Source: Polytrichum commune
Taxonomy: Eukaryota; Streptophyta; Polytrichopsida; Polytrichales; Polytrichaceae
Reading direction: 5' to 3'
DNA length: 64,000 nt
Assembly: GCA_950295325.1 (NCBI GenBank)
Contig: OX485804.1
Location: forward strand, 59,800,533-59,864,532
Shown: in pieces, positions 13,181 to 35,865 of the stretch
How the letters are laid out: each line of letters begins with the position of its first letter
Numbering within the stretch: the stretch's first letter is position 1
The notes under the pieces: generated by a model
Database searches by the model: none
Told to the model about the DNA's origin: nothing
What the model saw: the letters and a program-made list of their open reading frames with translations, nothing else
Made by a program: the position numbers and the translations under genes

Positions 13181-13760
13181 CCGAGTACTACACTAAATAT
13201 GATATTTAGTGTCACCAATTCCAATTGTCTTGCTCAATATGAATTGCAAACTGCGGTATAGTGTCACCAACACTAAATGTCAACCGAACATTATTTGTGA
13301 TACTTTGTAATTTATTGGGGGAGTTATAAATTTACAGTGTTGCAATTAGTGTCACCTACCACATGATTTTTCATCCAAAATTCAATCATCCATGACTATG
13401 TTTCATCACAAGTTGATGGCAAGAGAAGGCAGGGTTTTGGCCAGTCGATGAACTCATCCATCATCCACGACAATACTTGTTCACCTATTCATAACAAGTG
13501 CCGTCCAAAAAAGTTACCATAGTGACATCAAATACCATATCACACAAAATACCATATTTAGTGTAGCTACAAATGAGCCGATGAAGTTTGAGAAACAACT
13601 ACACGAAATATCATATATTAGTGTCACTTCCTATCCGGAGTTACACATTCCTACATATTCTTATTAATAAATGTAAATTTCTACCAACCAATGACGTTAA
13701 TATTCTGTACTGTCCAAACAATCAATTCAACCTTCGTTGGTAAAAATAATAATTAAATGA
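13181..13760. other. Anonymous DNA with recurring tttagtgtcac motif
   Basis: No gene. The words tagtgtcac and actaaatatgatatttagt (an imperfect palindrome) recur, and related words occur in the following array, so this may be a diverged edge of it. Confidence 0.5.
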
Positions 13761-15115
13761 GATGTACAAGTAACCAATTATATCATTGCGCAAACTCCAA
13801 ATAGCAAGTGACACTAAGTATCATATCTTATTTAGTGGAGTTTGAGTTCAAGACTCGAGGAAAACCACCTTATTGTTACAGAGGAATATACGGGAATATA
13901 CCTTGAATACCAAACTAAACTGAGGGCTCGGAACTAGAGTAGTGGATTTCGGCCAATCGTGCCCGGAAATCTGCCCGGTTAAAAAATGAAATAAGATGTA
14001 CAAGTAACCAATTATTTCTTTGCACAAACTCCAAATAGTAAGCGACACTAAGTATCATATCATCTTTAGTGGAGTTCGAGTTCAAGACTCGAGGAAAACC
14101 ACCTTGCTGTTACGGAGGAATCTATGGGAATATACCTCGAATACCAAAGTAAAACCGAGGGCTCGCAACTAGAGTAGTGGATTTCAGCCAATGGAAATCT
14201 GCCCGATTAAAAAATCAAATGAGATGTACAAGTAACCAATTATATCATTGCGCAAACTCCAAATAGCAAGTGACACTAAGTATCATATCATATTTAGTGG
14301 AGTTCGAATTCAAGACTCAAGGAAAACCACCTTATCGTTACGGAGGAATCTACAGGAATATACCTCGAATACTAAAGTAAAACTGAGGGCTCGCAACTAG
14401 AGTGGTGGATTTCGGTCAATCGTGCCCGGAAATCTGCCTGGTTTAAAAACCAAATGAGATGTACAAGTAACGAATTATATTGTTGCGCAAACTCCAAATA
14501 GCAAGTGACACTAAGTATCACATCATATTTAGTGGAGTTCAAATTCAAGACTCAAGGAAAACCACCCTATCGTTACAGAGGAATCTACAGGAATATACCT
14601 CAAATACTAAAGTAAAACTGAGGGCTCGCAACTAGAGTGGTGGATTTCGGCCAATCGTGCCCGGAAATCAGCCCGGTTAAAATATGAAATAAGATGTACA
14701 AGTAACCAATTACATCGTTGCGTAAACTCCAAATAGCAAGCGACACTAAGTATCACATCATATTTAGTGGAGTTCGAATTCAAGACTGAAGGAAAACCAC
14801 CTTATCATTACGGAGGAATCTACAGTAATATACCTCGAATACTAAAGTAAAACCGAGGGCTCGCAACTAGAGTGGTGGATTTTGGCCAATCGTGCCCGGA
14901 AATCAGCCCGGTTAAAAAATGAAATAAGATGTACAAGTAACCAATTATATCGTTGCGTAAACTCCAAATAGCAAGCGACACTAAGTATCACATCATATTT
15001 AGTGGAGTTCAAATTCAAGACTCAAGGAAAACCACCTTATCGTTACGGAGGAATCCACGGGAATAATATACCTCGAATTCGTAAAGTAAAACCGAGAGCT
15101 CGCAACTAGAGTGGA
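13761..15115 (+). repeat. Satellite array 1, ~235-bp unit, about 5.8 copies
   Basis: Unit starts (gatgtacaagtaac) lie at 13761, 13995, 14223, 14458, 14693 and 14928, giving periods of 234, 228, 235, 235 and 235. Each unit contains gacactaagtatca, ttcaagactc, tacctcgaata and ggctcgcaactagagt. The sixth unit is cut short by a GC-rich insert. The copies are very similar to one another, so expansion is fairly recent. Confidence 0.93.
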
Positions 15116-15455: not shown

Positions 15456-16700
15456 GTAACAAACCCCAAGGGGAGAACCGACCGCTTGAAGTTCGAGACT
15501 GCAGGAGAATTACCGGATCGTTGTAGAGGAATCTGTAGAAGAATATACCTCCATTTAATAAAAAGGAAAACCGAAGGATGTCAACATGTAACCAGTTGGA
15601 GTTGCACACACTAGGATCTCAAACGATTATGATGTCCAAAAATCTCCCTGCTCACTGAACCCCGAGAAGGTGTGCATGAGAACTGGCAGTTGGTTACAGA
15701 TGAACCGGTTGAGTTTGAGAAATAACCACCGGTTGAAGTTCAAGATTGCAGGAAAATTACCGATCATTGTAGAGGAATCTGTAGAAGAATATACCTCAAT
15801 TTGATAAAGAAAAACCCGGAGGATGTCAACATGTAACCAGTTGGACTTGCACACACTAGGATCTCCACCGATTAGTATGCCCAAAAATCTCCCCGCTCAC
15901 TGAACCCCGAGAAGGTGTGCACGAGGACCGGCAGTTAGTTACAGAGATGAAATAACCGGTTGAGTTCGAGAAATAACCGGTTGAAGTTCAAGATTGCAGG
16001 AAAATTACGGATCATTGTAGAGGAATCTGTAGAAGGATATACCTCCATTTAATAAAAGGAAAACTGGAGGATGTCAACATGTAACCAGTTGGAGTTGCAC
16101 ACACTAGGATCTCAACCGATTCATATGCCCAAAAATCTCCCCGCTCACTGAACCCCAAGAAGGTGTGCACGAGAACTGGAAGTTAGTTACAGATGAACTG
16201 GTTGAAGTTCAAGACTTTAGGAGAATTACCCATCATTGTAGAGGAATCTGTAGAAGAATATACCTCAATTTAATAAAGTAAACCCCGAGGATGTCAACAT
16301 GTAACCAGTTGGACTTGCACACGCTAGGATCTCCACCGATTAGTATGCCCTAGAAACTCCCCGGTCACTGAACCCCAAGAAGGTGATGTTGTTGGTGCAA
16401 AGGAAAGGAATTGGTGTGCACGTGAACCGGCAGTTAGTTACAGATGAACCAGTTGAATTTGAGAGATAACCGTTTGAAGTTGGAGACTCCAGGAAAATTA
16501 CCCATCATTGTAGAGGAATCTGTAGAAGAATATACCTCTATTTAAAAAAGAAAAACCCGAGGATGTCAACATATAACCAGTTGGACTTGCAAAAACTCGG
16601 ATCTCAACCGATTAGTATGCCCAAACAATGTCCCCGATCACTGAACCCCAAGAAGATGATGTTGTTGGTGCAAAGGAAAAGAATAGGTGTGTACGAGCGT
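15456..16700 (+). repeat. Satellite array 2, ~220-270-bp unit, five copies
   Basis: The motif gtagaggaatctgtagaa lies at 15523, 15769, 16017, 16238 and 16510, giving spacings of 246, 248, 221 and 272. Units share caacatgtaaccagttgga, aaaatctccc and gttcaagattgcagg. The order gttcaagact...ggaatct...atatacctc is the same as in array 1, so the two arrays are distant relatives. Confidence 0.9.
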
Positions 16701-32816: not shown

Positions 32817-33629
32817 TAAGGGCATGTTTACACATGTGTCCAAAGGTTGTGACTACTTTTTTTTGAAATTCTCTCATTGGTTGAAAAATGAGTGGCAACC
32901 CCATTTTGCTTTAGACTGAGTCACCATATATAAGATTGACCATGTCATAAATGGGAGAAGGTGACATGGAATACTACATTGATATGTGCAACTAGGTTGA
33001 CCTCACGAAAGGGTTGACTCTTTTACCCATGTAGAGCACCTTGGGTCAAAATCATGTCACAAAACTTCTAAATTTGTTTATACATCGATATAGCAATCAC
33101 TGTAAAAGAAATCATGCATTTTGTTATTTTGGAATTAACTATACAATATGGAATGGAATGTCAATAAATTAGCGTGGGATATCATTCTAATGGCACATGT
33201 TAGTGGGGCAATCTTTTTATCATGGTTGTCTAGACATGTTGATTAACAAAGAACTATAGAAGTTTATGATTTGGTTTTGATCCATAATTCTTTGCATGGG
33301 TAAAGAGGTAACATGCTTGCAAAGGCAACCTAATTGACATAAATGATGTTTAGTGGTGACCTAGACTTTGCGGCAAGACCATCCACATAGGGTGTCTTTA
33401 CAAAACATTCAATCAAGATAAATGTCTCCTTCACATTATGCCTTATGACCAAGGCTCTTAAGTGGTGATGTGGATTCTTCTTTGTCGATAGCTCCAGACC
33501 AAGGGTTGTGACCATGAAGAAGAAGAACGGAAAAATAAATAAAAATAAAAATAAACCAAATGATCAAAAGAAATGTTGGTATAACCAATGTGAAGATGGG
33601 CCGTTAACCATCCACATTACAAATTTGTA

Positions 33630-34321
33630 TGGAGATGTAAGACGGGAGTGGTGTAATGACTATTTTTCAACGAGTTGTGAGCATTGAGATAGGTATCCAT
33701 ATCACCTTGGTCACATGTGTAAACATGCTCTAGCATTACAGAGGGAATGGCGCATCACTTATTTTACAATGGGTTGTGACCATGAGATAGGTATCCATAT
33801 CACCTTGGTCACATGTGTAAACATGCCCTAGTATTACAGAGGGAACGGTGCACCACTTAATTTACAATGGGTTGTGACCATGAGATAGGTATCCATATCA
33901 CCTTGGTCACATGTGTAAACATGCCCTAGCGTTATAGAGGGAATGGTGCACTACTTATTTTTCAATGGGTTGTGACCATGAGATAGGTATCCATATCACC
34001 TTGGTCACATGTATAAACATGCCCTAACACTACAAAAAGAATGGTGTAACGCTTATTTTTCAATGACTTGTGACCATGAAATGTGTATCCATATCGCCTT
34101 GGTCACATGTGTAAACATGCCCTAGTGTTATAGAGGGAATGGTGCACTACTTATTTTTCAATGGGTTGTGACCATGAGATAGGTATCCATATCACCTTGG
34201 TCACATGTATAAACATGCCCTAACACTACAAAAAGAATGGTGTAACGCTTATTTTTCAATGACTTGTGACCATGAAATGTGTATCCATATCACCTTGGTC
34301 ACATGTGTAAACATGCCCTAA
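33630..34321. repeat. 98-bp tandem array, seven units, with dimeric sub-order
   Basis: caccttggtcacatg (one unit has g for a) lies at 33703, 33801, 33899, 33997, 34095, 34193 and 34291: exactly 98 each time. Units at 33997-34095 and 34193-34291 are near-identical as pairs, a 196-bp higher-order repeat. Each unit ends in the terminal inverted repeat aaacatgccc. Two more diverged units follow the nested MITE (34752-34965). Confidence 0.95.
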
Positions 34322-34748
34322 GGGCGTCCCCAGCAGCCTCGCCATGGGGCATGCCAACGCCAAAAATGGGGCATCCCGGGTTCTTAGGTGGCGGTACCGG
34401 CATAAATTGAGCCCCACCAATGTCCGGTCCGGCATAATTTAGAACCGGCCCGGGTATAGTAAAGGCCTTCCAACGCCATAAATGGTTCATATGCCGACCC
34501 TCCTCCGGCCCGCCAAGAGATTACTTTAATATCAGATACTCCGATATCCTACTTTATCCCATGTCAGATAATAGGTGTCGTTGTCTTATTGATTGCTTCC
34601 TAATTATACCGGGGGTATGCCTAGGCTTTGGTGGGCTCTGACTCAAGATGAGTTGCCCCGCCCAAGATGGAGGGCTCCCCAAACACCCTAAACACCATAT
34701 AATATATTATTTTTGGCGGGTTGCTTTCTATCTCTCCTGGGGATGCCC
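34322..34748. mobile_element. Nested PIF/Harbinger-type MITE with TAA TSD
   Basis: 427 bp, more GC-rich than its host array. Left end gggcgtccccagcag, right end ctcctggggatgccc: imperfect inverted ends. TAA flanks both sides (34319-34321 and 34749-34751). Removing it restores the array sequence atgccctaacactaca, as in neighbouring units. Confidence 0.92.
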
Positions 34749-34968
34749 TAACACTACATAGGGAATGGTGTAACGTTTATTTATCAATGGGTTGTGACCA
34801 TGAGATAGGTATTCATACCACCTTGATCACATATGTAAACATGTCCTAGCATTACAGAAGCAATGGTGTAATGCTTATTTTTCAATGGGTTGTGACCATG
34901 AGATAGGAGTCCAATTTACTTTTTCTTTTCCTCATGGACCTTGGTCACGTGTGCGAAACATGCCCTAA

Positions 34969-35277
34969 CATGTCAAAGGGAATGGCGCAATAAATAAGTG
35001 AGCTGGAATGTACGAACTTAAGCTTACTGGCACCGGGTATGGACTTTATGAGAATTGCAGAGGCCTTCGTATCTTGTCACTTGCAAGGTATTGAATACTA
35101 ACTTAACTTCTCATTCTCTCGAAGTTTATTATTCCTTGAGTCATTGCAGCCCAGCCGTAGTTGTAAGATGCAGACCCTCTGTCTATATCTGCCTTATCAC
35201 AATGAATAGTGCCATGCCATGAACACTAACAAGCAGAGCCCAACATTTTCCCTTTAAATTGCACCCATACCCAGACC
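34969..35277. other. Anonymous DNA, no gene seen
   Basis: No feature recognised. Confidence 0.5.
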
Positions 35278-35446: not shown

Positions 35447-35698
35447 CTACACCAAGTCTTGGTTGGATTGGACAAATAAAAGGTCATTCACTATCGTTGG
35501 CTTCAGCCCGGAGCGCTTCTTGGTTAGCGTATTCCCCGCATCCGAGAAGTTTGACTCCGATTTGGAGTTGGATGTAGGGATGCACAAAACCGAACGTGCC
35601 ACGCGCGACATGATGGGGAATGTGGGGGCTTCTTTCAACTTCCACCACAAGATAATACTAAATTTAGCAGTGGTATCCAATATGCTTTGCTTTAGCCT
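35447..35698 (-). pseudogene. hAT transposase C-terminal dimerisation domain fragment
   Basis: The minus-strand frame reads WWKLKEAPTFPIMSRVARSV, then LCIPTSNSKSESNFSDAG and RSGLKPTIVNDLLFVQSN. This matches the hAT dimerisation domain pattern W-W-K...F-P...L-C-I-P-x-S-x-x-S-E-x-x-F-S-x-A-G...L-x-P...V. Only about 80 residues remain. The upstream catalytic and zinc-finger parts are absent, and upstream of the fragment the frame reads into CCCACCCATG repeats. It is a remnant and not a functional transposase. Confidence 0.85.
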
Positions 35699-35699
35699 A

Positions 35700-35865
35700 T
35701 GCTCACCCATGAACAATAATATCGAACTCATGCCCACCCATGAACAATAACATCGCAGCCATGCCCACCCATGCCCACCCATGAACAACAATATTGCAGC
35801 CATGCCCACCCATGCCCACCCAAAACCCATGGGCGTGGGCATGGGTATGGGCACCCAATGTAGGG
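35700..35865 (+). repeat. CCCACCCATG short repeat cluster, right
   Basis: catgcccacccatgaacaa units, about five, ending in the partly palindromic cccatgggcgtgggcatggg. The pair of clusters brackets the hAT fragment. Confidence 0.85.

Follow-up and report, generated by a model that had tools for sequence, protein, structure and literature searches.

Our analysis suggests that the array of 98-bp tandem units in the window, by which we mean the whole 64,000-nucleotide stretch of Polytrichum commune DNA that was analysed, is probably a tandem duplication straddling the right edge of a non-autonomous PIF/Harbinger-type element, with about 58 bp of transposon end and about 40 bp of host DNA, the TSD included, in each unit. 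The exact spacing, the transposon end in every unit, the TAA-flanked element, the insertion of a MITE and three more arrays elsewhere in the genome are seen directly in the sequence, and the copied flank is plain in two of these three further arrays. All genome searches were made in the 408-Mb assembly that carries the window. The parts of the locus, in window coordinates, are the following.

32817..32819, no strand: left copy of the element's TSD, TAA, pairing with the TAA at 34966-34968
32820..32979, + strand: left terminal region of the Harbinger-type element, with the TIR GGGCATGTTTACACATGTG and subterminal DNA, homologous to the dispersed copies L018, L019, L032, L036, L042 and others
32974..33341, no strand: the other nested repeat, a MITE-like palindrome within the element body, ends approximate
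33342..33515, + strand: rest of the element body, including the right-subterminal motif GACCAAGGGTTGTGACCATGA
33516..33632, no strand: stretch between the body and the first recognisable unit, which may be a decayed first right end
33633..33730, + strand: unit u1, which has diverged furthest (55-64 of 98 positions identical ungapped; a 1-bp shift lowers the count)
33731..34318, + strand: units u2-u7, six exact 98-bp units, each about 40 bp of putative host-flank copy (starting TAG or TAA) and about 58 bp of right end
34319..34321, no strand: left TSD of the MITE, TAA, identical to the TAA at 34749-34751
34322..34748, + strand: nested Tourist-like MITE, 427 bp
34749..34751, no strand: right TSD of the MITE, TAA, also the start of unit u8
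34749..34846, + strand: unit u8, 80-83 of 98 positions identical to u2-u7
34847..34965, + strand: unit u9, 119 bp, with the longer right end of the family type, interpreted as the element's right terminus
34966..34968, no strand: right copy of the element's TSD, TAA, pairing with the TAA at 32817-32819
34966..34989, + strand: DNA just outside the element, matching the first 24 bp of u2 at 20 of 24 positions

PIF/Harbinger (Tourist-like) elements typically have TWA duplications and GGG-type TIRs. The window element (32820-34965) starts with GGGCATGTTTACACATGTG (32820-32838) directly after AATAA and ends in GAAACATGCCC directly before TAACATG; TAA stands on both sides, as it does at the element of the second array described below, and a short TIR of the GGGCATGTTTACAC type is present, the ends of the family being often mutated. 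No ORF in the element reaches 130 aa, and we regard it as a TAA-flanked non-autonomous PIF/Harbinger-type (Tourist-like) transposon. Genome searches with the left ends of the family gave 465 and 395 candidates, the best 40 of which were scored in each case; the top-scoring non-self matches are only 81% and 76% identical, which indicates an old family, and the listed copies other than the query range from 71 to 81% identity to it. The left 160 bp of the window element align with L018 (76% over 164 bp), L032 (75% over 167 bp) and L019 (82% over 123 bp), and in the body, 33343-33378 matches L033 and 33429-33482 matches L026, while a motif similar to GACCAAGGGTTGTGACCATGA was seen by eye in L017. 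The repeat at 32974-33341 has many dispersed copies of its own, to which its first arm is 71-78% identical and its second arm matches in reverse. Twelve family copies from the two left-end searches, mostly chosen for a match starting near the left terminus, were compared; their left ends are GGG...TIR variants and their right ends are of the GGTCACGTGTGTAAAACAACCC type, mostly mutated. TAA on both sides is kept in one of the twelve (L037, by eye), several have it on one side only, and the rest are mutated at one or both ends. The preliminary description of this DNA had named as the observation that would expose the left-end match as chance the lack of any other copy with both ends and a TAA or TTA duplication; L037 is such a copy, and dispersed single copies, which had been proposed as the pre-amplification form to look for, are indeed numerous in the family. 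The 19-mer GGGCATGTTTACACATGTG, with up to two mismatches, occurs at 63 places in the genome (nine of them inside the window element) against 23 for the reversed control, and on this comparison together with the dispersed homologous family we rejected a chance match of the left end. No autonomous partner was found near these 63 places among the best 150 of 990 DDE_Tnp_4 candidates, the nearest of which lies 86 kb from any of them.

As had been noticed before, the inverse of the left end closes the units of the array. It does so with at most one mismatch at seven ends (33730, 33828, 33926, 34024, 34122, 34220 and 34318), which are spaced exactly 98 bp apart, and with two mismatches at an eighth end, at 34846, beyond the MITE; over 25 bp, the inverse matches between left end and units reach 84-96% identity. 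A ninth end closes at 34965 and is longer, with an indel in the TIR. The reported spacing of seven units thus stands, but their number does not, as nine right ends in total face a single left end. Tandem Repeats Finder describes the array both as 98 bp x 6.7 and as 196 bp x 3.4, and a 196-bp higher-order pair had been claimed. Pairwise identities among u2-u8 range from 79 to 97 of 98 positions; u4 and u6 share 97, as do u5 and u7, u4 and u5 share just 80, and u4u5 is identical to u6u7 at 194 of 196 positions. We therefore rejected a regular 196-bp higher-order structure, and the pair is best described as a single dimer duplication with no running higher-order pattern. Unit u9 carries about 21 extra bases that align with the family right end in L018; it looks like the original terminus, and the units before it share a shorter form that appears derived. 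In the stretch at 33516-33632, where a duplication of this kind would be expected to leave a first right end, no significant match to one was found (213 and 83 of 1000 shuffles reach the scores).

A whole-genome search with the array gave two matches, both at the window locus (such counts being lower bounds), and the longer 98-bp arrays that had been suggested as something to look for did not appear. Satellites form long arrays, usually at several or heterochromatic sites; here there are nine ends over about 0.9 kb, the MITE excepted, at the one locus found. The earlier label of a satellite is thus too strong, a genome-wide 98-bp satellite is rejected with array matches at the window locus alone, and judged from its sequence we consider the array a locus-private minisatellite.

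In each unit, about 58 of the 98 bp are the element's right end (GGGTTGTGACC...CATGCCC), and the other 40 bp or so start with TAA or TAG directly after the CCC. The DNA just outside the element was compared with three of the nine units in a shuffle test: against u2 it matches at 20 of 24 positions, a score that none of 1000 shuffles reaches; against u8 the match is weak (12 of 1000 shuffles reach the score), and against u9, the nearest unit, there is none (633 of 1000). The last 16 bp or so of the non-transposon part have no direct match to the outer flank. Because the outer flank at 34966-34989 matches the non-transposon part of u2, the unit looks like a transposon/host junction in the order host flank, transposon end, the evidence from the window locus alone being moderate. 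The idea that a satellite was born here from a transposon end is thus retained in so far as the terminus lies in the repeat, but the unit is not purely a transposon end, with about 40 of its 98 bp resembling copied host flank. Slightly further out, 34992-35001 (AAATAAGTGA) is the exact inverse of the 10-bp TCACTTATTT of u2 (9 of 1000 shuffles), which may reflect a small inversion or chance. The whole-genome search was made with the sequence of this array (array 1), and the flanks of arrays 2-4 were compared with 73 locus records; in these records, the flank part of each of the four arrays has no match at another locus (E <= 0.1).

The further arrays were sought with TIR patterns, alone and in pairs at set spacings, and confirmed by reading; repeated TIRs were required, and every array found in this way necessarily includes an edge. 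The five paired-TIR searches gave 19 real against 79 reversed-control matches, 16 against 97, 19 against 1, 13 against 14, and 7 against 8. Only the third is enriched, and since the reversed controls match or exceed the real counts in the other four, the raw counts are no evidence of a general enrichment. Reading of the sequences points to at least three further independent arrays of the same design, at C2:42.6 Mb, C3:2.39 Mb and C2:15.6 Mb. The units of each contain a flank of their own, and the opposite end is single.

C2:42615199-42616628 (L020): array 2, same family as the window element, left end amplified
C3:2393201-2394283, - strand (L027): array 3, another family with the similar TIR GGGGTTGTTTACACCATGGACC after TAA, left end amplified
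C2:15635037 to about 15636350 (L064/L070): array 4, left end reading like that of array 3's family

Array 2 has ten units of 127-134 bp, each made of the left end and about 52 bp of upstream flank, and the flank before the first unit aligns with the unit flank over 52 bp: two units score 42 and 82, and in both tests none of 1000 shuffles comes as high, the shuffled maxima being 26 and 25. A likely breakpoint microhomology is TCCC. The flank has it in ...GTGCTCCC; on the element side, where the innermost copy itself reads GAGTCAGGGCCC, it is taken from relatives (L019) and from the array units, which have ...GCAGTCCC. Beyond the array, the element runs on to a right end with TAA after it. Array 3 has eleven exact 95-bp units that are 89-100% identical. 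Comparison with the relatives L028 and L029 shows that GGGACCA is the point where the unit departs from the element; GGACCA, the likely breakpoint microhomology, is also present in the outer flank, together with ...AACATTAA. Its flank match is 14 of 18 after one extra A, adjoining the outermost copy, is skipped, and none of 63,982 18-mers of the window does as well, but free local alignment lends it no significance, the score being reached by 128 and 160 of 1000 shuffles. Next comes the element body, which has a right end with TAG after it. Array 4 has eight complete units of 139-153 bp, and its outer flank CATTCTTCGCGAACGTCATAGTTGA matches the unit at 24 of 25 positions (0 of 1000 shuffles). 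On the array side and at the opposite end, respectively, the TSD-like triplets are TAA and TAA in arrays 1 and 2, TAA and TAG in array 3, and TGA and TGA in array 4. For arrays 1 and 4, no breakpoint position could be set. Units of edge and flank are, on our reading, plainest in arrays 2 and 4.

Several related loci were recorded beside these. The units in L064 measure about 139 or about 152 bp, apparently from an internal 13-bp duplication, CATGGTCACACTT. In L028 (C3:7656901-7657047), two left ends of array 3's family lie 136 bp apart, each after TAA; this is possibly an array at the two-unit stage and was not counted as an array. Nor were the pairs of GTTTACAC or AGGGNNTGTTT motifs in L030, L031, L066 and L067, and a 72-bp tandem array with GGGGGTGTTTGATTCGAGATCGAGG in L065 (C4:24287300-24289200) was set aside, no transposon end being seen there.

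The 427-bp MITE was correctly recognised earlier as lying at a CCC/TAA junction with the TAA duplicated (34319-34321 and 34749-34751). The genome search with it, in which the best 40 of 1385 candidates were scored, gave at least 40 near-full-length places with 97-100% identity as well as one partial copy and one 32-bp piece. Twenty-three matches, from 20 loci and the window, were aligned: 22 are flanked by identical TAA or TTA triplets, the other being truncated. The two terminal 20-mers of the MITE are inverse to each other at 13 of 20 positions. With a 3-bp TWA duplication, a TIR and a high copy number, it has the features of a Tourist-like MITE. The other 21 full-length copies are 97.9-99.5% identical to the window copy, compared with 79-97 of 98 positions between u2-u8, which suggests that the MITE arrived after the array. 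It had further been proposed that the MITE was targeted to a junction resembling the element's own insertion site. Of the 22 MITE copies that have a TSD, 20 show C immediately before it and seven show CCC there (by eye, window included). As the MITE enters C-TWA sites generally, the CCC/TAA junction needs no special targeting, and we rejected such targeting; the site appears to be an ordinary C-TWA target, of which several are present in an array of Harbinger ends. Nesting of Tourist-like MITEs in other MITEs is familiar from the literature on insertion preference in maize and rice. The window resembles these cases in having a TAA/TTA-targeting MITE at the edge of another Harbinger-type element, but differs in that the target is a tandem array offering about nine such edges. 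At L053 (C2:63316240-63317210), two copies of the MITE lie head-to-tail with a common TTA, and at L046 the MITE is followed by the apparent start of another copy; both loci read as double insertion at the MITE's own target duplication.

How could a junction be multiplied in this way? The duplication would start where the DNA breaks or a fork stalls at the edge of the transposon; the copying strand would fall back and re-anneal at a short microhomology, and the edge would thereby be copied twice or more; unequal exchange would then lengthen and partly homogenise the array, and in the window array, a MITE of another Harbinger-type family has entered one junction at its TAA, a site of the sort this MITE usually takes. 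Unequal exchange is consistent with the dimer duplication u4u5/u6u7 and with the divergence of the edge units. Since the units are not joined at the transposon terminus, host repair or replication slippage is favoured over end-to-end circles or transposase strand transfer. The break might come from a transposase nick, for example, or from an excision gap refilled from the sister chromatid, and transposase as its putative maker is a proposal only. Quite possibly, if short of probably, transposition had no part in the process, and ordinary replication slippage or unequal crossing-over made a junction-spanning duplication in DNA that happens to hold a transposon edge. The 4-6 bp microhomologies suit any slippage, and a family as old as this one, with listed copies 71-81% identical, could have been inert when duplicated; against this, four independent arrays at the edges of two families suggest that edges are prone to it, with the reservation that the search design selects edges. 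With four such cases in one genome, transposon edges may be recurrent starting points for new tandem repeats.

It is rather unlikely that the whole 98-bp unit is transposon interior, with repeats that formed inside its right terminus and travelled with the element, as has been suggested for Tetris TIR-220 and VaccSat7. The whole array does sit between the element's two TAA copies, part of u9 aligns, with gaps, to the interior of L018, the outer-flank match is weak for u8 and absent for u9, and VaccSat7 is reported in passages of PMC7290377 as tandem units in Harbinger termini. On the other hand, each CCC is followed by TAA or TAG as in a TSD, u2 matches DNA outside the element, the genome search placed both array matches at the window locus, the segment of about 40 bp was not seen at other loci in the 73 locus records, and the non-transposon part of array 2 plainly equals the outer flank. 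Very improbable is repeated insertion, in which successive elements would have entered the same TAA and been truncated later: the MITE family does behave so at L053 and seemingly at L046, and such dimers were described by McGurk and Barbash, as cited in PMC12628747, but double insertion would yield whole elements with 3-bp spacers, and the units are edge fragments of 95-153 bp with the same flank each time, which already contradicts it. That a transposon joined a pre-existing 98-bp satellite by chance is hardly credible, for although tandem arrays are common in the window (55 Tandem Repeats Finder rows, overlapping rows counted), the genome search turned up no further copy of the array, which moreover holds the element's own TIR, as the 25-bp inverse matches of 84-96% attest.

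The duplication of a transposon edge with its flank, which we prefer, has relatives among known systems. According to the portions of PMC7290377 that treat it, VaccSat7 of Vaccinium is a multiplied terminal part of a Harbinger element, mostly with TAA/TTA duplications, and its three to five tandem units come, like those of the window array, from close to the 3' end of non-autonomous Harbinger elements. Its units, as presented there, lie inside named element families, whereas the arrays here seem locus-private and have host flank and TSD in their units; the window unit does derive from a terminus (about 58 of 98 bp), but the array was not found inside a dispersed family, the genome counts being lower bounds. 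Tetris/TIR-220 of Drosophila virilis, in the account given in parts of PMC4079207, comprises short internal tandem repeats from part of a DNA transposon TIR, and shares with our arrays TIR-derived tandem repeats able to seed longer arrays. Tetris is a foldback element with the repeats within its TIRs, while here one end is amplified and host DNA lies in the unit: foldback elements have repeats inside both long TIRs, and the repetition is confined to one end in the window element and likewise, within the DNA examined, in arrays 2-4. Truncated Helitron arrays (Xiong et al. 2016, as summarised in PMC12628747) also have many copies of one end and a single opposite end, but Helitrons are rolling-circle elements, and those here are TIR elements with 3-bp TSDs and flank in the unit. 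The same 2025 review on satellites from transposons names, in the sections concerned, slippage, stem-loop, rolling-circle, double insertion and LTR recombination (PMC12628747). Among the titles and abstract openings that literature searches of open-licence PMC brought up, none pointed to junction-spanning units of a Harbinger end and host flank. A Harbinger-end satellite is thus already known, and our addition is four junction-spanning, apparently locus-private cases in one genome.

The first units of a satellite are usually guessed from mature arrays in which the starting point has been erased. The four short arrays still show the flank, the transposon edge and, in two of them, the likely breakpoint homology, and they make it a testable question whether transposon/host junctions are hot spots of tandem duplication and whether transposase activity is a driver. 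As a more speculative and, in our estimate, doubtful extension, transposase made elsewhere may keep nicking the array, whose units of TIR and TAA/TAG are target-like, each repair adding or removing units. If this were true, transposon edges would be self-feeding nurseries of new satellites, and more Harbinger-type insertions, like that of the nested MITE, would be drawn to their junctions.

Other features were recorded elsewhere in the window. An ORF at 35447-35854 on the - strand matches the hAT C-terminal dimerisation domain (PF05699, E 5.6e-20) and overlaps short tandem repeats of the ATGCCCACCC type. Further tandem arrays lie at 13751-15114 (about 235 bp x 5.8) and 15481-16655 (about 248 bp x 4.8), and L039 has a similar motif, AACCAGTTGGA.
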